A stretch of 64,000 nt of DNA from assembly GCF_003946085.1 (NCBI RefSeq), contig NZ_RHOB01000007.1, positions 62,001-126,000 of the forward strand, given 5' to 3'. This DNA is from Levilactobacillus angrenensis. Its GTDB lineage: Bacteria; Bacillota; Bacilli; Lactobacillales; Lactobacillaceae. Positions 2,558 through 58,215 of this stretch are shown here, piece by piece; positions within the stretch are counted from its first letter, which is position 1; each line of letters opens with the position of its first letter. A model generated the notes under the pieces. That model was not told the DNA's origin, searched no databases, and worked only from the letters and a program-made list of their open reading frames with translations. The position numbers were made by a program, and so were the translations under genes.

Positions 2558-3424
2558 ATGATGGATATGACTTCAACTTATACGTTAAACAATGGTTACG
2601 AGGTCCCAGTAGTCGGCTTTGGTACGATTATTCCGGACGGCCAAGAGACCGTGACGGCGGTTAAAAAGGCGATTAAAAATGGGTATCGGCTGATCGATAC
2701 GGCTGAAATCTACGGCAATGAAGTGAGTGTGGGTCAGGGGATTCGTGAAGCAATGGCCGAAAACAACCTCAAACGAGAAGATGTTTTGGTTAGTACGAAA
2801 GCCTGGCACAGTCATCGGGGCTATCAGCAGACGCTACAGGCCTTCAATGCGTCGCTGGACAAGTTAGGGTTGGACTATGTTGATATTTACCTCATTCACT
2901 GGCCGGCCAATGCCAAGTGGCATGACGATTGGCGCGAACTAAACGCCGATACTTGGCGTGCCTTGGAAGAGCTGTATCGTGCTGGTAAGATCAAAGCCAT
3001 TGGCGTTTCTAACTTTTTGGCGCATCATCTGAAGGCACTGGTCGAGGATAGTGAGATCAAGCCCATGCTGAATCAAATCGAATATCACCCGGGCTTTGCC
3101 CAAACGGCAGCGGCTGAGTACGCTCAGTCCCAGGATATTCAGGTCGAAGCTTGGAGTCCCTTCGGTGGGCCGGACAGCAACGTCTTACAAGACGCGACGG
3201 TTAACGAGATCGCCCAAAAATATGGCAAGCAACCCTCACAAGTGATTTTGCGGTGGCTGATTCAAAAGAACATTATCCCTTTGGCCAAGTCGACGAGTGA
3301 CGCACATATGCAGGCTAACTTGGATGATTTTGATTTTGCGTTGACGTCGGCTGAGATGCAAGTCATCGACGAAGCCCCGTACAGTGGCGGATTTCAATTT
3401 GATCCGGACACGGCCAGATCATAA
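2558..3424 (+). CDS. Aldo/keto reductase, second paralogue
   Basis: This 288-residue protein is homologous to its upstream neighbour. The tetrad is Asp47 (RLIDTA), Tyr52 (EIYGNE), Lys81 (STKAW) and His114 (LIHWP). The start is ATGATG at 2558 or 2561; TAGGAG upstream fits either. The two copies differ widely in sequence, so this is an old duplication or two independent members rather than a recent tandem copy. It is probably cotranscribed with the first reductase. Substrate unknown. Confidence 0.92.
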   Translation: MMDMTSTYTLNNGYEVPVVGFGTIIPDGQETVTAVKKAIKNGYRLIDTAEIYGNEVSVGQGIREAMAENNLKREDVLVSTKAWHSHRGYQQTLQAFNASLDKLGLDYVDIYLIHWPANAKWHDDWRELNADTWRALEELYRAGKIKAIGVSNFLAHHLKALVEDSEIKPMLNQIEYHPGFAQTAAAEYAQSQDIQVEAWSPFGGPDSNVLQDATVNEIAQKYGKQPSQVILRWLIQKNIIPLAKSTSDAHMQANLDDFDFALTSAEMQVIDEAPYSGGFQFDPDTARS

Positions 3425-5019: not shown

Positions 5020-5145
5020 ACTAAGGACTGCAAGTAGCATTAACGCGGTAGTTCCCGGAACGACAGTATTCTGCTCACTAGTTCTGGTGGACAAAACGCT
5101 GTCGCTCCGGGAGTCAAGACATTAATTCAGCTTTCAACCTTTAGT
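5020..5145. repeat. 126-bp palindromic (foldback) copy of the dispersed intergenic repeat
   Basis: It begins ACTAAGGACTGCAAG and ends CTTTCAACCTTTAGT. The left half is the inverted counterpart of the right half over about 55-60 bp, with shared blocks such as CCCGGAACGACAGTATTCTG on the left and CGACAGCGTTTTG (reverse complement) on the right, meeting near CACTAGTTCTGGTGG. Both halves correspond to the right end of the 640-bp element found at 16834 and 54181. It lies between the convergent SDR and ABC-F genes. Confidence 0.8.
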
Positions 5146-8175: not shown

Positions 8176-8640
8176 GCTTGACCTTTTGTGAAACCGCCAC
8201 CATTAAAGCTGGCTCTGGAGTCGGTAAATTGCCTTCACAAATTAGACTTGTGAAAGTTCAGCCATAAACAACGGGCTGAATTAGTTGGTGAGCAATCGAA
8301 GTGGGTAAGTGATTAGCGTTGTGGCTACGCAAATTAGATAGACAATGGTTTGCGTGCGTATGCTAGTAATGCCAACTTATGTTTCCGTGACTATTAAAAG
8401 CGGGCTGGCATTAACTGGAGACGTTTGACGGTTAGTGAATACTATTAGAAGTGAATCTAGTGTGGCTGGGTCGGCATGAAAAATCTTTCAGTAGATGATT
8501 TCTGGATAGCCGGTTTTAGCATTAATGGTGGTGGGGCTAACGCCAACAGCACGGCTATTCCACACCGTAGCCGAGAGTGAAGCGAAATCTGGGCTCAGCC
8601 GGGGAATTTAGCAGTGGGTTTTGCTGCTAAATTGGTGACT
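8176..8640. other. Long non-coding stretch with several inverted repeats
   Basis: I see no gene here on either strand. Visible structures are TTCACAA (8234-8240) and TTGTGAA (8248-8254) in outward orientation, GGATAGCCG (8504-8512) against CGGCTATTCC (8552-8561) enclosing TTAGC/GCTAA, and a perfect 10-bp stem AATTTAGCAG (8605-8614) / CTGCTAAATT (8624-8633). This could be a structured leader or RNA, or remains of repeats. No function can be assigned. Confidence 0.4.
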
Positions 8641-8760
8641 TTGAGACGTGGTCCGTCGGCTCAAAGCAAGCTCCGAGACCGGGTTGGGGCTCGGGGCGTC
8701 CTTCCCCAGCGTTCCGGCCCAGAATTTCGCGCAACGGCAGGCGGTCAAGTCAATACTATC
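8636..8760 (-). repeat. Degenerate fragment of the dispersed repeat, inverted
   Basis: CTTTGAGACG, CGGCTCAAAGC and CTCCGAGACCG in this order are the reverse complement of the left-arm core of the 640-bp element (CGGTCTCGG, GCTTTGAGCCG, CGTCTCAAAG). The flanks are strongly diverged, so the limits are approximate. Confidence 0.6.
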
Positions 8761-10988: not shown

Positions 10989-11024
10989 AGAAGTCTGGAC
11001 TTTCGGGTTCAGGCTTCTTTTTTT
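10989..11024 (+). terminator. groEL terminator
   Basis: AGAAGTCTGGA (10989-10999) pairs with TTCAGGCTTCT (11008-11018) using some G-U pairs, followed by six more T residues. Confidence 0.9.
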
Positions 11025-11029
11025 GCTCG

Positions 11030-11180
11030 GTTCATGCCGCTTAGACAACTGGCGTCTTTGAGACGCGATTTCCGGCTCAAAGCGAGCCTGAGGGACGGTC
11101 CCGGTCCGTTCAACCCCATAGTTGGCGGCCAGCCCTCACCACGAAGCTGTAAACGACTCTTCCTAGCGTGACGAGTCGCC
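11030..11180 (-). repeat. Partial copy of the dispersed repeat, inverted (left part)
   Basis: Read on the minus strand this segment has GCTTCGTGGTGAGGGCTGGC, then TATGGGGTTGAACGG, a truncated GCCTGAG region, CGCTTTGAGCCGG, CGTCTCAAAGACGCC and TTGTCTAAGCGGCATGAACC. These match 16910-17060 in order. The segment equivalent to GCGGTGGGCGG is missing. Confidence 0.75.
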
Positions 11181-11569
11181 TGGTGGTAATGTTTCTAGTC
11201 AGTCCTTACTTGGTAAATTTCAGGTGAAGCGGACACAAGTCATCTTTAGCTTGAAAGTAGGGGGACTTAGCGTTAGAATCAGGCATTGTCGCTAAAATAA
11301 GGCAGCCATTTCCTATTGTCTTGACGCTAAAACCAAGATAATTGGGTAGCAACAAAATTTAGCAAAAAGAAAGTCTTTATTTCTGCCAGACTTTGCCGGA
11401 TAATGGATAAGTTCGCTAAGCAATTCTACGGTTGCTAACTGCTGGAATTGTGGTAATGTGGAGCTAGTTGTAGTAGACTTACTGCACGTTGAGCTTTGAC
11501 AGAAACAAGCTATTATTTAACGGGCCGAGTCCCGTTTTCATTATTTCTGGAGATAAGGAGTAAATAGTC
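11181..11569. other. Non-coding leader region upstream of kimA
   Basis: No gene is visible. The repeated word CGCTAAAA occurs at about 11290 and 11334. A small hairpin AACGGG/CCCGTT lies just before the kimA RBS, followed by TTTCATTATTT. B. subtilis kimA has a c-di-AMP riboswitch. I could not recognise its core here, although a diverged one cannot be excluded by eye. Confidence 0.35.
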
Positions 11570-13446: not shown

Positions 13447-13639
13447 AGTGGAAAAATAGTTTGGGTCCACTATTAGTTGTGAAGCGGGTTAGAGGTTAAA
13501 TAGGGGGTCACGAAATTTGCCTTATTTCGACCGTTCTTAGCTATTCCGGGTGGTACTGGTAAACTTACCTGTGACAGTAAAGAAACGGCTACTATGATGT
13601 GTAGACGGGCAAATAACGGGGTAGATATGAGAAAGCGCA

Positions 13640-13870
13640 ATGTCCGGGAATGACAGTGTTCTGTTCAGTAAAATTAGTGAAACCAGAAGCCTGTGTCAAC
13701 CAGAGATTCCGCCTGAGAAACTGGCTTCCGGTTCGCTTTGAAGCCTGGCAAAGCCCGCCAGTTTCCAAAATCGGCCCGCGCTGTAGGCTGAGACCGCTTC
13801 TCGGGATCGGTCCGCCCATCGCGTTCCAACCCATAAGTTGGCGGACGGTAGGCGGCCAGTTTCCACTAGG
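13640..13870 (-). repeat. Internally deleted inverted copy of the dispersed repeat
   Basis: On the minus strand this copy reads from the left-arm region (GGCGGCCTACCGTCC, AACTTATGGGTTGG, GGGCGGACCG) directly into right-arm sequence (CTCAGCCTACAGCG, GCTTCAAAGCGAACCGG). It then ends with the right-end block CAGAACACTGTCATTCCCGG. The centre, about 300 bp in full copies, is missing. The join lies at the shared word GGCTGAGA/CCGAGACC. It sits between the convergent kimA and lrgB genes. Confidence 0.8.
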
Positions 13871-13904
13871 ATGTTGTACCCGACAGTACCCAACAAATTT
13901 GGAC

Positions 13905-16833: not shown

Positions 16834-17474
16834 ATTAAAGGTTGAAAGATGAAAATCAGCCAGAAACATTGTCGCCACGCAACTGATGGCGTAAAAATTA
16901 GCCGTTACAGTTTCGTAGTTCGCACTGGCCGCCTACCGTCCGCCAAATATGGGTTGGAACGCGGTGGGCGGACCGGACCGAGCCTGAGGGACGGTCTCGG
17001 CCTCGCTTTGAGCCGAAGGTCACGTCTCAAAGACGCCAGTTGTCTAAGCGGCATGAACCGCGCCGCTAAGGCAACTCCCACGACTGAACCCATATTTGGC
17101 GGACTCTCGGCTACAAGAGTGTTTGCCAGTAAAAGTCGGCTTAGCCCCAGCTAACAGCTGATTTGACAACTAGTCTTTCATTAAGACAAGGTCACTGATC
17201 ATCGCCAACTCGCCGGAGGCAGACAGAGGTGGAGCCAGCTGTGTCGACGGTGTTGGCTGAGGTCTTTTCTCAGCCTACAGCGTGGGGCGACTTGAGAGAC
17301 TGGCGAACTTTGCCAGTCTTTCAAGCGAACCGGAAGACCGCCCCTCAGGCTGGAGGTGTCCCCCATAGCAGGTGGAATCTCTGGCTGACGCAGGCTATTG
17401 GTTTCACTTATTTTAGTGGACAGAACACTGTCGTTCCAGGGACTATTGCGTTAATGCTAATTTCAACCTTTAGT
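16834..17474 (+). repeat. Full-length 641-bp dispersed repeat element, copy A
   Basis: The left end ATTAAAGGTTGAAAG and right end TTTCAACCTTTAGT are inverted repeats (13 of 14). Inside are a perfect 18-bp inverted repeat (16938-16955 with 17087-17104) and hairpins ACTCT/AGAGT (17103-17120), GGCTGAG/CTCAGCC (17255-17275) and AGACTGGC/GCCAGTCT (17297-17319). The copy is colinear with that at 54181-54823 over its whole length. No open frame is conserved between copies as a protein. It lies between the convergent tagO and yigZ genes; three bases separate it from the yigZ stop codon. Confidence 0.88.
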
Positions 17475-24054: not shown

Positions 24055-25171
24055 ATGGAATTAAGCGATGCAAAACGCGAAATTACTGCCATGAAAGAAC
24101 AACTCACCGGCTTTAGGGGGTCACTTTGACTTTGATGCCCTGAACGAAAGCATCAGTGTCAATGAAGGCCAAATGGCCCAACCAGGCTTTTGGGACAACG
24201 CCCAGGCCGCGCAGAAGCTGATCGATGAGACCAACGAAATGAAGAAAAAGGTCGAGGAGTACCAGAAACTCTCTGATCAAGTGGATGACCTGGAAGTCGC
24301 GCTGGAATTGTTACAAGCAGAACCGGACGCTGATATGCAAGCCGAATTTGAAACGGATTTTGCGGCGGCGAAGAAAGCTCTACAACAATATAGTCTGAAC
24401 ATGTTGCTCAACCAAAAATACGACCGCAACAATGCCATTTTGGAAATTCATCCGGGAGCCGGGGGGACTGAATCCCAGGACTGGGGTGAGATGTTGATGC
24501 GGATGTATACGCGTTGGGCCGACCAACATCAGTTTAAGGTCACCGTCTTGGATTACCAAGCTGGCGATGTGGCTGGCTTGAGCAGTGCGACGTTGTTGAT
24601 TGCTGGGCACAATGCTTACGGCTACTTGCGCTCCGAAAAGGGTGTGCACCGGCTAGTCCGCATTTCGCCGTTCGATTCGGCTGGGCGGCGACACACGTCC
24701 TTTGCGTCGGTGGATGTCTTGCCTGAGCTGGATGACTCCGTTGATGTAGAAATCAATCCGGCTGATTTGAAGGTCGACGTTTACCGGGCTTCTGGGGCGG
24801 GGGGCCAACACGTCAATAAGACGTCATCGGCCGTTCGGATCACCCACTTGCCTACGGGTATCGTGACCCAAAGTCAAGCGCAACGGTCGCAGCTGCAAAA
24901 CCGGCAGACGGCCTTGGGGATGTTACGGGCCAAATTGTATGAACGTGAAGAAGAAAAGAAGGCGGCGGAAAAGGCCAAGCTCGAAGGCGACCAGATGGAT
25001 ATCGGCTGGGGCTCGCAAATCCGCTCCTACGTCTTCCATCCGTACACCATGGTCAAAGATCACCGGACCAACTACGAAACGGGCAACGGGCAAGCTGTCA
25101 TGGATGGCGACCTCGATCCGTTCATTGATGCCTATCTGCAATGGCAGTTGAGTCAGAAGAATCCCGATTAA
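24055..25171 (+). CDS. prfB: Peptide chain release factor 2 (programmed +1 frameshift)
   Basis: RF2 releases peptides at UGA and UAA. The ATG at 24055 follows AAGGAG, and the first 24 codons end at an in-frame TGA (24127-24129). A +1 shift at CTT-TGA-C continues in the frame of GAC (24128) for 347 residues, giving 371 in total, the normal RF2 size. The GGQ motif (SGAGGQHVNKTSSAVRI) and the SPF anticodon-like tripeptide (RISPFDSAGRRHTSF) are present. Coordinates span both frames. The upstream position after secA is conserved. Confidence 0.97.
24115..24130 (+). promoter_or_regulatory. RF2 autoregulatory +1 frameshift site
   Basis: The site reads AGGGGG-TCA-CTT-TGA-C. The internal Shine-Dalgarno-like AGGGGG sits three bases before the slippery CTT and the UGA stop is followed by C, the known weak context. 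Low RF2 increases slippage and restores synthesis. Confidence 0.97.
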
Positions 25172-25185
25172 GCTGGGGTGTGATC

Positions 25186-25788
25186 ACTGTCACCGCGCGA
25201 CTTTTCGCGTTAAAATTAGTCAATTACAGCTTCGTAGTTAGAACTGGCCGCCTACCGTGCGCCAACTATGGGTTGGAACGCGGTGGGCGGACGGGCCGAG
25301 CCTAAGAAGCGGTCTCGGCCTCGCTTTGAGCCGAAGGTCACGTCTCAAAGACGCCAGTTTTCTAAGCGGCGAGAATCGCACCGCTAAGTAAACTCCCACG
25401 GCTGAACCCATATTTGGCGAACTCTCGGCTACAAGAGTGCGTACCAATAACAATCGGCTTAGTCCCAGGTGGCAGTTGATCTAGCGACTAGTTTCTAACA
25501 TAGCATTGCTGATAATCACCAACCCGCCGGAGGCAGCCAGAGGTGGAGCCAGCTGTGACGACGGTGTAGGCTGAGGTCTTTTCTCAGCCTACAGCGTGGG
25601 ACGACTGGGAAGACTGGCCGGTTTTACCAGGCTTCAAAGCGAACCGGAAGCCCGCTCCTCAGGCTGGAGGTGTTCCCCATAGCAGGCGGAATCTCTGGCT
25701 GACGTAGGATCCTGTTTTCACTAACTTTAGTGGACAGAACACTGTCGTTTCGGGAATTGCCGCGTTAGCGCTACTTTCAACCTTTAAT
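25186..25788 (+). repeat. Dispersed repeat element, copy B (left end truncated)
   Basis: It is colinear with copies A and C from their TGTCACC block to the right end CTTTCAACCTTTAAT. About 40 bp of the left end, including the terminal repeat, are missing. It keeps GTAGGCTGAG/CTCAGCCTAC (perfect 10 bp), ACTCT/AGAGT (25421-25438) and AGACTGG/CCAGGCT (25611-25633). It lies between prfB and a terminator 22 bp further on, so it may be transcribed as the 3' end of the prfB mRNA. Confidence 0.87.
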
Positions 25789-29164: not shown

Positions 29165-29315
29165 AGATTGGGCAGTTTCCGGCTCAAAGCGGAGCCGAGG
29201 CCGTCACTCAAACCCTACTATCGCGTTCCAATCTATATTCGGTGGGACAGTGGGCGGCCAATTCAAACGATGTCCTATTACCGTCAATTCACCCTGAAAA
29301 GGTGGGCGGCCAGCA
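29165..29315 (-). repeat. Degenerate partial copy of the dispersed repeat, inverted
   Basis: CCGGCTCAAAGCGGAGCCGAG, then CGCGTTCCAATCTATATTCGG and GGGCGGCC, follow the reverse complement of the left arm of copy A in order. GGTGGGCGGCCAGC recurs at 29300. Limits are approximate. Confidence 0.65.
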
Positions 29316-34544: not shown

Positions 34545-34590
34545 GGGTATTCTTGCCCTAGCGAGTGTCTTTGGGCTGGTTACGTTGTTG

Positions 34591-34735
34591 GGCCGGCCGC
34601 CTATCGTCCGCCAACTATGGGTTGGAACGCGGTGGGCGGACCGGACCGAGCCTGAGAAACGGTCTCGGCCTCGCTTTGAGCCGATGGCCCACGTCTCTGG
34701 CCTCATAGCCGAAACGTGTACCAACAGGCAACTGT
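34591..34735 (+). repeat. Partial copy of the dispersed repeat (left arm)
   Basis: GGCCGCCTATCGTCCGCCAA, then GGTTGGAACGCGGTGGGCGG, CTGAGAAACGGTCTCGGCC and TCGCTTTGAGCCG are nearly identical to the left arm of copy C. After ACGTCTC the sequence leaves copy C and continues as CATAGCCGAAACGTGTACC and AACAGGCA. That tail matches copy K at 23700 as reverse complement. Confidence 0.8.
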
Positions 34736-40402: not shown

Positions 40403-40415
40403 TTGAGTTGAACGA

Positions 40416-40455
40416 ATGGCAATTGCTGGGGTTTCCTGGCAGTTGCCATTTTTTT
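40416..40455 (+). terminator. trxB terminator
   Basis: ATGGCAATTGC (from 40416) pairs with GCAGTTGCCAT (40439-40449), with GGG/TCC extending inside, followed by a seven-T tract. Confidence 0.92.
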
Positions 40456-40482
40456 ACGCTCAAAGGATAGTGTTTTTGACTG

Positions 40483-40610
40483 CTGAGAGACTCGTGAGTT
40501 TTACGAGGCTTTCAAGCGAACCGGAAGCCCGTCCCTTAGGCTGGAGGTGTCCCGCAGAGCAGGCGGAACCCCTAACAGCCGTAGGCGCTGGTTTGTGTTA
40601 TCTTCAGGCA
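40483..40610 (+). repeat. Partial copy of the dispersed repeat (right arm)
   Basis: TTTCAAGCGAACCGGAAGCC, then TTAGGCTGGAGGTGTCCC, CAGGCGGAA and CCGTAGGCGCTGGTTT follow the right part of copy A in order. It keeps the hairpin at the left of this block in changed sequence: CTCGT (40491-40495) with ACGAG (40503-40507). The terminal repeat is missing. Confidence 0.78.
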
Positions 40611-47014: not shown

Positions 47015-47064
47015 GGTACGATGACTAGGGGGGGAAGATAGCCAGAGGAACAGCTGGTTAACGA

Positions 47065-47165
47065 AAGATTGAAAGTAGCATTAATGCGACAATTCCCGAA
47101 ATGACAGCATCTTGTTCACTAAAATTAGCTAAACCAGGAGCCTGAGTTCACTAATTTAATGAACA
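47065..47165 (-). repeat. Partial copy of the dispersed repeat, inverted (right end)
   Basis: AGATTGAAAGTAGCATTAA then CGACAATTCCCGAAATGACAG and AAACCAGGAGCCTGAG match the reverse complement of the right end of copy B (GGTTGAAAGTAGCGCTAACG, CGGCAATTCCCGAAACGACA). TGTTCA/TGAACA (about 47112 and 47159) flank the inner part. Confidence 0.7.
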
Positions 47166-52176: not shown

Positions 52177-53186
52177 GAGAACTAAATAATAGCCGCCGCC
52201 CCAAAATCGTGGTCATTGGCGGTGGTACCGGACTCCCGGTCATTTTACGCAACCTGCGCGACCAAGACGTCGACATCACGGCGGTGGTCACGGTTGCCGA
52301 TGACGGGGGTTCTTCCGGCATCATTCGGCATTACGTTAACGTGGTGCCGCCTGGTGATATTCGTAACGTCATGGTGGCGTTGGCGGAAGTGCCAGACATT
52401 TATAAAGACCTGTTCCAGTACCGGTTTGAAACGACGGATGATTTCTTTGCGGGTCACGCGATTGGCAATCTGATCATTGCCGCCTTGTCGGAAATGAAGG
52501 GCGGTATTTTTGATGCCGTTCAGGAGTTATCACAACTGATGCGGGTCAACGGGCACATTTTCCCGGCCGCAGACGAACCACTGGAACTCCACGCCCAGTT
52601 CGCGGATGGCAGTACCCTGAGCGGCGAGTCGGAAATCACGGCCGCCCACAAGCTCATCAAACGGGTATGGGTCGAGACTAGCGACCATCACCAACAGCCG
52701 CAAGCGGTTCAGCCAGTGATCGACGCCATCATGAATGCCGACCAAATCGTCTTGGGACCAGGAAGCCTGTTTACCAGCATCCTGCCCAATCTGATGATTG
52801 AAAGTGTCGGTAACGCGGTCAAGGAGACGTCGGCGGAAGTCGTTTACATCTGCAATATCATGACGCAGAAAGGTGAAACGGAAAACTTCACCGATGCCGA
52901 CCACGTTCGCGTCTTGAATCAGCATTTAAACACGAATTTTATTGACACAGTCTTGGTCAACACCCGTAAGGTGCCTGACCAATACATTGATTACCAACGC
53001 TGGGACGAAATGTCTCAACCGGTGCGGCATGACTTTCAGGGACTCCGTGATCAGGGGTGCCGGGTCATTTCGACCGACTTTTTACAATTACGCGATAATG
53101 GGGCTTTCCACAATGGGCAAGAGGTCGTGCATGAACTCTTGAACTTGATTGGCCAGCCACGTTACCGGATGAAACGGAGGCCTTAA
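52173..53186 (+). CDS. yvcK: YvcK/GlmR family uridine-diphosphate-sugar-binding regulator
   Basis: This 337-residue CofD-like protein has [19 protein letters not shown] and [14 protein letters not shown], the family's substrate-binding loops, and [14 protein letters not shown]. YvcK/GlmR binds UDP-GlcNAc and promotes glucosamine-6-phosphate synthesis and cell-wall metabolism in gluconeogenic conditions. Translationally coupled to rapZ (4-bp overlap). Confidence 0.96.
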
Positions 53187-54172: not shown

Positions 54173-54180
54173 GTAAAAAA

Positions 54181-54823
54181 ACTGAAGGTTGAAAGATGAA
54201 GATCAGCTAGAAGTATTGTCACCACGCGACTCATGGCGTAATAATTAGTCGTTTACAGCTTCGTAGTTTGAGCTGGCCGCCTACCGTCCGCCAACTATGG
54301 GTTGGAACGCGGTGGGCGGACCGGACCGAGCCTGAGAAGCGGTCTCGGCCTCGCTTTGAGCCGGAAAACCACGTCTCAAAGACGCCAGTTTGCTAAGCGG
54401 TGAGAGTCGCACCGCTAAGTAAACTCCCACGGCTGAACCCATATTTGGCGGACTCCCGGCTACAGGAGTGCTTGCTAGTAACAGTTGGTTTAGCCACAGG
54501 CAGCGGCTGATTTGACAACTAGTCTTCAACTAAGACAATGGTGCTGATAACCATCAACCCGCCGGAGGCAGTCAGGGATGGAGCCAGCTGTGGCGACGGT
54601 GTTGGCTGAGGTTTTTTCTCAGCCTACAGCGTGGGACGACTTTGGAGATTTGCGGTTTCGGCAAGGCTTCAAAGCGAACCGGAAGCCCGTTCCTCAGGCT
54701 GGAGGTGTTCCCCATAGCAGGCGGAATCCCTGACTGACGCAGGCTCCTGGTTTCACTAGTTCTGGTGGGCAAAACGCTGTCGCTTCGGGAGTCAAGACAT
54801 TAATTCAACTTTCAACCTTTAGT
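54181..54823 (+). repeat. Full-length 643-bp dispersed repeat element, copy C
   Basis: The left end ACTGAAGGTTGAAAGATGAA and the reverse complement of the right end, ACTAAAGGTTGAAAGTTGAA, match at 18 of 20 positions. Internal landmarks repeat those of copy A: GTCCGCCAACTATGGGTT (about 54288) with AACCCATATTTGGCGGAC (about 54436), ACTCC/GGAGT (54452-54469) and AGATTTGC/GCAAGGCT (54646-54668). The left arm 54330-54362 and the right arm 54665-54699 are imperfect inverted copies of each other. It is inserted exactly between the whiA terminator and the clpP terminator, with A-runs on both sides. Confidence 0.9.
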
Positions 54824-54828
54824 AAAAA

Positions 54829-54861
54829 AATAACACCAACCCAAGCCGGGTCGGTGTTATT
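54829..54861 (-). terminator. clpP terminator (minus strand)
   Basis: AATAACACC (54829-54837) pairs with GGTGTTATT (54853-54861), with ACCC/GGGT inside. On the minus strand it runs into a T tract (plus strand A 54824-54830). Confidence 0.9.
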
Positions 54862-57224: not shown

Positions 57225-57296
57225 GCGCCCGTAGTGTAATGGATCGCACGTAAGATTCCGGTTCTTGAAATGGGGGTTCGATTCCCTCCGGGCGCA
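57225..57296 (+). tRNA. tRNA-Arg (CCG), copy 1
   Basis: A 72-nt cloverleaf: acceptor GCGCCCG/CGGGCGC, D stem GTGT/GCAC, anticodon stem TAAGA/TCTTG with loop TTCCGGT (anticodon CCG, reading CGG), T stem GGGGG/CCCTC with loop TTCGATT, and discriminator A. The 3' CCA is not encoded (ATCA follows). It is identical to the copy at 58144. Confidence 0.97.
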
Positions 57297-58143: not shown

Positions 58144-58215
58144 GCGCCCGTAGTGTAATGGATCGCACGTAAGATTCCGGTTCTTGAAATGGGGGTTCGA
58201 TTCCCTCCGGGCGCA
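58144..58215 (+). tRNA. tRNA-Arg (CCG), copy 2
   Basis: Identical over all 72 nt to copy 1, 919 bp away in the same orientation. Its own promoter and terminator are present. Confidence 0.97.

Follow-up and report, generated by a model that had tools for sequence, protein, structure and literature searches.

The window, by which we mean the whole stretch of 64,000 nucleotides analysed from Levilactobacillus angrenensis, contains an element with terminal inverted repeats (TIRs) of 14 bp: copies A and C are full, copy B is nearly so, and eight more are partial or rearranged. A sequence-only reading of this DNA had reported two colinear copies of nearly equal length, which our results confirmed: A and C align from end to end with 84% identity (blastn) and both are bounded by TIRs. 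Copy B, whose 5′ TIR was not recognisable, was not named in that finding. The copies are listed below; R1 is a covariance model of the folded unit U described further on.

5021..5144, no strand: short palindromic fold-back derivative, two element 3′ ends head to head, with one clear TIR
8532..8759, minus strand: partial copy, element positions 83-317 (profile search)
11024..11204, minus strand: partial copy, element positions 21-232 (profile search)
13632..13884, minus strand: internally deleted copy, positions 68-170 joined to 436-620 (R1 40.8 bits at 13689-13817)
16835..17473, plus strand: element copy A, 639 bp from TIR to TIR (nhmmer 3-641 of 642; blastn identity to C 84%)
16835..16848, plus strand: 5′ TIR of A, TTAAAGGTTGAAAG
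17460..17473, minus strand: 3′ TIR of A, CTAAAGGTTGAAAT on the minus strand
about 25166..25787, plus strand: near-full element copy B (nhmmer 15-640 of 642), 3′ TIR at 25774-25787
29175..29283, minus strand: partial copy, element positions 70-188 (profile search)
34584..34697, plus strand: partial copy, element positions 83-196 (profile search)
40414..40601, plus strand: partial copy with one U (R1 61.2 bits at 40414-40586; nhmmer 40484-40601)
47063..47147, minus strand: partial copy, element positions 556-640 (profile search)
54174..54181, no strand: left copy of the target duplication of C, TAAAAAAA
54182..54822, plus strand: element copy C, 641 bp from TIR to TIR (blastn, nhmmer)
54182..54195, plus strand: 5′ TIR of C, CTGAAGGTTGAAAG
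54809..54822, minus strand: 3′ TIR of C, CTAAAGGTTGAAAG
54823..54830, no strand: right copy of the target duplication of C, TAAAAAAA

The window also holds two tRNA genes (57225-57296 and 58144-58215), 919 bp apart and within an 80-nt repeat of 99% identity.

The fixed TIR ends claimed for A and C proved real, except that the outermost A and T assigned to them belong to the flank or the target duplication; the element itself starts at the C of CTRAAGG and stops at the G of CTTYAG (16835-17473 in A, 54182-54822 in C), and the left end of copy A reads TTAAAGG, not CTAAAGG. With up to two mismatches allowed, the TIR 14-mer CTRAAGGTTGAAAG occurs eight times in the window against 0.98 expected, a count reached in none of 100 shuffles; one of the eight, at 52791, lies outside any element. 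Exact matches in the genome number 83, compared with none for the reversed control. Elements complete from TIR to TIR number 32 in the own genome, including six shorter variants (281-470 bp), and 14 of the 32 are flanked by a perfect target duplication of 7 or 8 bp (20 with at most one mismatch). Copy C has the perfect duplication TAAAAAAA, and no duplication is visible at copy A. Identity between the flanking direct repeats peaked at 7 bp (0.61, against a control mean of 0.38 and a maximum of 0.487 in 2,000 shuffles) and at 8 bp (0.55, shuffle maximum 0.457), and at 9 bp it was barely above the shuffle maximum (0.368 and 0.365). The flanks are AT-rich (0.75, compared with 0.49 for the window). 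Both the fixed ends with TIRs and the target duplication expected of a miniature inverted-repeat transposable element (MITE) are thus present.

The genome (2.8 Mb in 62 contigs) yielded at least 40 element matches of 531 bp or more among the best 40 of 282 candidates. Nine chosen 20-kb stretches contain element pieces at 17 places, covering ~2% of their bases, with no full-length copy among these 17. Since 29 aligned own copies average 0.849 identity and the closest pair reaches only 0.970, we take the family to be old. By blastn, the element matches 28 of 35 genomes of the genus and none of 23 outside it. Among named genomes, the exact element pattern matched Levilactobacillus brevis CD0817, whose flanks are ~90% identical to the window's genome, and Lactobacillus sp. 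HBUAS51381, a 3.6-kb stretch of which is identical to a locus of another genome of the window's genus (G018). At two own loci, L022 and L025, the 14-bp flanks nearly match in opposite orientation, and one of these flanks is shared with L013; a larger duplicated segment may surround the three.

Orthologous sites were compared in two relatives, G003 and G033, for six sites joined across the element. At L004 and L009 the alignment with both relatives continues colinearly across the insertion point, where each relative has one target copy and lacks the element. The L010 site is element-free with a single target copy in G003, and in G033 the match extends a mere 5 bases beyond the junction. The L018 site has no element in either relative, with a small gap in G003 and about 50 additional bases in G033. 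L016 stays undecided because the match in the relatives begins at the duplication. At the L017 junction both relatives carry element pieces (L209 in G033, 1664-1982; L210 in G003, 1427-1502), which points to a site used more than once or to an insertion that is older and shared; the insertions are therefore not all lineage-specific. The spacer between whiA and clpP was followed in 30 of the 35 genomes, five of which lacked whiA; among the 25 with both genes, only the own genome has a TIR-to-TIR copy, five have pieces and 19 have none. In G033, with the most similar WhiA (99%), this spacer measures 175 bp. The L008 site lacks the element in L. brevis CD0817, where the spacers are too different to define a clean empty site. 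Four of the six joined sites are therefore element-free in a related species, as a MITE would be expected to leave them, and together with the whiA-clpP spacers they exclude that all relatives are filled at the same sites. Copies without fixed ends or a lack of empty sites would have refuted the mobile-unit reading; with the single exception of L017, neither was found.

Next, we looked for a partner transposase. In contig C30 of the own genome the end of a truncated transposase gene adjoins an orphan TIR, and matches to its 124-aa product piece were found in 12 of the 35 genomes of the genus, with one in the own genome; this search recovered no intact partner in the own draft genome, only the truncated one. 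The relic is of IS4 type and lies next to that TIR within 1992-3089 of L061, its frame stopping shortly before another transposase-like frame (2628-3089) that we presume to be IS5-like. A complete insertion sequence of 1,559 bp was present in another species of the genus (G019, locus L082), with exact element TIRs at both ends and an 8-bp target duplication, CTGATTAA. Its open frame of 489 codons, stop to stop, scores 469.9 bits with the NCBIfam IS4 model NF049925 (cut-off 250) and contains a single YREK motif, YARRWQIEGYFKVAK, at 368. The 3′ end of the element shares 20 of 21 bases with an end of this insertion sequence. On the side where the transposase starts, the TIR of the insertion sequence is followed inwards by a long palindrome (near 2920-2961, TTGTACAGTAAAGGCCCGGC...). 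A second, distant IS4-type insertion sequence with 47-48% protein identity to the searched piece and related ends, CTGAAACTTGAAAG, occurs in other genomes of the genus (L086 and L091, with shorter matches in L087 and L088).

The accessible text on the ISPepr1 subgroup of the IS4 family gives lengths of 1500-1600 bp, ends of the form YT-AA-YTT---A and duplications of 7-8 bp (PMC2266710). The insertion sequence of L082 agrees with that description in size, 5′-CT ends, the consensus positions of AA and TT, the YREK motif and its 8-bp duplication, and the AT-rich targets of our element also fit it (PMC2266710). One mismatch separates its end, CTAAAGGTTGAAA, from the published consensus, at position 7, which is G instead of Y in the text at hand (PMC2266710). 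Having the YREK transposase, size, ends and duplication of the subgroup, it matches an ISPepr1-like IS4-family insertion sequence, an assignment made without a transposase tree. The element itself differs from the subgroup in encoding no transposase. The proposal that the element is a non-autonomous, MITE-like mobile unit thus stands on its fixed TIR ends, 7-8 bp duplications, empty sites and the existence of an insertion sequence that shares those ends.

What the sequence-only reading did not notice is the nature of the interior. In other species, two domains of ~170-190 nt (D1 and D2) can be aligned, whereas alignment mostly fails in the spacer and at the ends. D1 is similar to D2 in reverse complement, and because the minus-strand sequence of D1 and the plus-strand sequence of D2 align as a single unit of ~185 nt, which we call U, the interior is a pair of folded units on opposite strands that face outward: a minus-strand U, a spacer of ~100 nt and a plus-strand U. 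GC content is 0.60-0.62 in the U units of A, B and C.

16931..17112, minus strand: left U (D1) of A, R1 53.6 bits
17211..17395, plus strand: right U (D2) of A, R1 194.7 bits
25250..25430, minus strand: left U of B, R1 55.1 bits
25525..25709, plus strand: right U of B, R1 187.3 bits
54279..54461, minus strand: left U (D1) of C, R1 58.6 bits
54462..54559, no strand: spacer between the U units of C, low conservation (mean pairwise identity 0.751 in 29 own copies, computed with the spacer as 54466-54559)
54560..54744, plus strand: right U (D2) of C, R1 205.8 bits

Folding of the element exceeded that of 20 shuffles on the plus strand (z -10.1), on the minus strand (z -8.5) and as DNA (z -8.7). Whole-element folds place D1 and D2 on one strand, which blurred the strand signal; separate folds resolved it in part. 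The consensus folds (kcal/mol, plus/minus) were -69.7/-76.1 for D1 and -76.3/-61.1 for D2 in own copies, -60.7/-82.7 and -52.3/-28.2 in the G002/G019/G010 clade, and -63.7/-72.8 and -80.1/-61.4 in G015, where the incomplete D1 of L096 was left out. All three clades therefore prefer the outward strand, minus for D1 and plus for D2. Single copies of D1 folded better on the minus strand in 17/29 own, 60/61 G002-clade and 12/12 G015 cases, and single copies of D2 on the plus strand in 28/29, 38/48 and 13/13. Across helices common to both strand folds, G-U against A-C cells stood at 188 to 74 for the outward strands. Over the union of helices D2 again agreed with the outward strand, and the D1 counts for and against were 185:167 in own copies, 204:208 in the G002 clade and 31:64 in G015. 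The strand signal is thus mixed and cannot separate RNA from single-stranded DNA.

Covariation was measured in an alignment (A2) of 24 D2 sequences out of 90 collected; of ten drawn from G002/G019/G010, two truncated or most diverged rows (L175 and L108:3806-3981) were left out. Pairing is possible in 97.4% of cells, compared with 87.3% after shuffling, and double-sided changes occur at 24 of 51 pairs. None of 500 shuffles reached any of five measures, and slid versions of the structure pair at only 32-43%. Helix 6 keeps an A-G mismatch between covarying pairs in 23 of the 24 rows. Among 35 matches from other genera, of which two are weak and antisense, both partners vary in 42 of the 51 pairs (388 such cells, 98 when shuffled), in an alignment that leans to the model because the model made it.

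In the 29 own copies, D1 and D2 are better conserved (mean identity 0.917 and 0.902) than the TIRs with flanks (0.735-0.794) or the spacer. In G002 and G019, 14 D1 copies lie beside a missing or decayed D2; at two of them, L154 and L155, a TIR remnant could be seen by eye near the expected distance. A set of 61 D1 copies has a mean identity of 0.893. Six of ten G002/G019 pairs were kept as orthologs, the other four being rejected because their flanks are only ~40% alike. The six D1 pairs are identical at 929 of 993 positions, and in the five with all parts identity was 776/827 for D1, 786/922 for D2 and 392/525 for the spacer (D1 0.94 against spacer 0.75, p 5e-23). Changes at base pairs of these six D1 pairs kept pairing in 19 cases and broke it in 3, where random placement gives 15.6 and 13.2 and never fewer than 9 broken in 2,000 placements; 8 of the 19 kept changes come from a single pair, L112/L126. 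In four of the six pairs the D1 orthologs are not each other's best match, an outcome that would equally follow from gene conversion. In genus g41, U conservation slightly exceeds that of the spacer in one ortholog pair (0.962 and 0.961 against 0.919) and shows no excess in a second (0.963 and 0.978 against 0.977). Selection on U at its resident sites is, on this comparative evidence, likely but not demonstrated: the support comes from one species pair and gene conversion is not excluded.

R1 found U in 34 of the 35 genomes of the genus, 19 of them with at least 75 matches each, and also in genomes with no blastn match to the element; these counts may include a weak antisense match to the same copy, as in 3 of 13 matches in the window. 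In a sample of the family (best 17 candidates per genome, strict filters) U occurs in at least 28 of 151 genomes and at least 8 of 40 genera, own genus included. A sample of the order (148 genomes, same-family ones included) gave three matching genomes: our own, a second from its family, and a third from a different family with a weak match (E 5e-5; covariance-model E-values are rough). As far as such searches can tell, U is more widespread than the transposon. In 20 stretches from four genomes, each of a different other genus, two strong U matches on opposite strands occur at 11 places, always as outward pairs, and one stretch carries two same-strand U separated by 1.1 kb. No oriented IS4-like TIR pair was found around these 11 pairs, so IS4 transposition may not explain them; isolated partial TIR matches occur in 8 of the 20 stretches. 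Plasmids searched with three U-type queries gave no match for two of them and five records for the third, with a U relative on plasmids of Pediococcus damnosus and Loigolactobacillus backii. On two of these beer-bacteria plasmids (L262 and L263, both at 2501-2693) the relative lies ~19 bp past a MerR-family gene, between tandem genes and under no listed feature.

Using simple ORFs as gene calls, we placed 32 own elements in 18 convergent, 13 tandem and 1 divergent site, and 129 control gaps in 20, 92 and 17. The convergent excess is strong (p 6e-6), and the deficit of divergent sites among own elements is not significant (p 0.13). Two-domain copies in G002/G019 lie mostly in tandem sites (21/27), where the genes are on the element's minus strand in 17 cases and on the plus strand in 4 (p 0.007). 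Tandem sites of own copies (7 and 6) and of the 14 D1-only copies (5 and 3) show no such bias.

The absence of a conserved protein, asserted in the sequence-only reading, held with a qualification: A and C do contain short open frames that overlap by position (e.g. the minus-strand frames of 62 aa at 16905-17093 in A and of 82 aa at 54281-54529 in C), with protein identity (56-72%) under the DNA identity of 84%. The five frames of C with at least 60 codons are each kept in only 11 to 22 of the 28 other own copies, in which no excess of third-codon-position changes was seen, and a coding element was rejected on these grounds. We take the element to be non-coding, a status inferred from its frames, and it fits the definition of a MITE in lacking a transposase gene or conserved protein. 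Rfam at gathering score recognised only the two tRNAs in the window and nothing at nine further loci; at E up to 10 there were only weak matches far under the gathering scores, so U is no known Rfam RNA. Copy C has no blastn match in phage or plasmid collections, and an origin from either was set aside. Among the open-licence PubMed Central papers listed, no title or abstract start describes the element or U. The earlier remark that the element was not recognised as a named family therefore holds for Rfam and for those papers.

Together, these results very probably describe an IS4-type (ISPepr1-like) MITE that carries an outward pair of U units, with a role of U as an mRNA-end element only inferred. 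An IS4-type transposase would have moved the element in trans, as its anatomy supports in the absence of a transposition experiment, presumably inserting it mostly into AT-rich DNA past gene ends. The family is probably inactive now in its own genome, given that only a truncated transposase gene was found there. Transcription of neighbouring genes through U could then let it act as RNA, putatively a structured mRNA-end element that serves as a barrier to decay or read-through; copies keeping U would be tolerated or useful if it acts there, and would thereby outlive the transposon ends. That role is inferred from position, a partial strand preference and precedents in the consulted parts of work on bcr and BOX repeats (PMC3446304, PMC3049150). 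Because there are no expression data, action of U as RNA at mRNA ends is not demonstrated, and we regard it as possible rather than probable. A broader proposal, that U is a new structured-RNA family of the Lactobacillaceae with tens to probably hundreds of copies per genome, its fold selected at many sites, spread in Levilactobacillus by the IS4-type MITE, we advance tentatively, at somewhat short of even chances.

The same observations could come from an ordinary MITE with a passive structured filler, whose U copies are alike through spread and gene conversion and have no resident function. This is a serious contender, even if we would not bet on it: MITE transcripts commonly fold, according to the available portion of one source (PMC10969869), most of the six D1 orthologs are not mutual best matches, one g41 pair lacks any excess conservation of U, and the placement is compatible with simple avoidance of harm. 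A passive filler does not readily account for U outlasting the TIRs and spacer in own copies, nor for the G002/G019 copies that, by eye, keep U where D2 and the TIRs have decayed; the excess of kept over broken base pairs also speaks against it, with the reservation that L112/L126 contributes so many of the kept changes. The element might also be a simple internal-deletion derivative of an IS4 insertion sequence, as the common TIRs would allow. Past the 14-21 terminal bases, however, there is no convincing interior match (a single one of 26 bases, E 0.035), and the element profile does not match the insertion sequence at E up to 10; the interior is unrelated beyond those ends, and we rejected this origin as highly improbable.

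That U recurs in at least 8 of the 40 sampled genera, own included, in outward pairs at 11 of 11 opposite-strand places of other genera without flanking oriented IS4-like ends, and on plasmids of beer bacteria, would also fit a REPIN-like mobile unit with its own enzyme, captured between IS4 ends in the Levilactobacillus lineage. We consider this unlikely, though worth keeping in mind: no second enzyme is known here, U alone has no established ends or duplications, and TIRs in other genera may simply have decayed. Somewhat less likely still is that U works not as RNA but as folded DNA, a cruciform or single strand bound by a host or transposase protein. The excess folding as DNA over 20 shuffles, the resemblance of inverted outward pairs to binding-site pairs, the tolerance of single-stranded DNA for G-T pairs and the mixed D1 strand signal are all in its favour, but the A-G mismatch conserved within a covarying helix fits single-strand or RNA folding and not duplex recognition, and the D2 strand preference points the same way.

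Within the MITE reading with a U pair, the cargo is what stands out: a motif without an Rfam entry that covaries across several genera of an industrially important family. A folded RNA does not usually reach such a copy number. Should U prove active where it sits, it would directly test whether transposon cargo can become a genome-wide regulatory or mRNA-end system in bacteria; should it prove inactive, it would cleanly exemplify structure that conversion or spread alone has maintained. Were the new-RNA-family proposal true, a transposon would have seeded genome-wide RNA elements at gene ends.

Finally, we compared the element with known repeat systems. REPIN and BIME units are arranged in inverted pairs, and the element resembles them in consisting of high-copy intergenic units in inverted pairs. 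It does not qualify as a REPIN, which is built from short REP hairpins: U measures ~185 nt, in contrast to 20-40 bp for REPs in the accessible part of one source (PMC3733652), and in Levilactobacillus the element has classical TIRs and duplications, whereas REPs go with TnpA-REP, described in the available text as unlike classical transposases (PMC8266576). The repeats bcr1-bcr18 of the Bacillus cereus group are likewise intergenic, some MITE-like and some with conserved structure; they are often part of mRNA ends, and bcr3 correlates with mRNA half-life, to go by the excerpted text, which describes no outward pair with an IS4 partner (PMC3446304). BOX of Streptococcus pneumoniae likewise consists of modular intergenic repeats predicted to fold as RNA, and pneumococcal repeats are overrepresented between convergent genes, as stated in the part of the paper at our disposal (PMC3049150). 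Unlike BOX, for which the same partial text states no insertion-sequence partner, the element has no boxA-B-C modules and carries an outward inverted pair (PMC3049150).

Close counterparts are also bacterial MITEs with an insertion-sequence partner, such as RUP with IS630-Spn1 and Nezha with an ISNpu3-like sequence, which in the available portions of the sources are likewise non-coding, with TIRs, duplications, ends shared with the insertion sequence and intergenic sites (PMC3049150, PMC10969869). At 641 bp the element exceeds the typical limit of ~500 bp, as the sequence-only reading had rightly remarked, and with its GC-rich cargo it is not AT-rich in the usual way; both properties are typical of MITEs and not defining, as far as the consulted excerpt goes (PMC10969869). 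Beyond length and GC content, the element differs from RUP- and Nezha-type MITEs in an interior made of an inverted covarying pair that is better conserved than the TIRs and spans genera.
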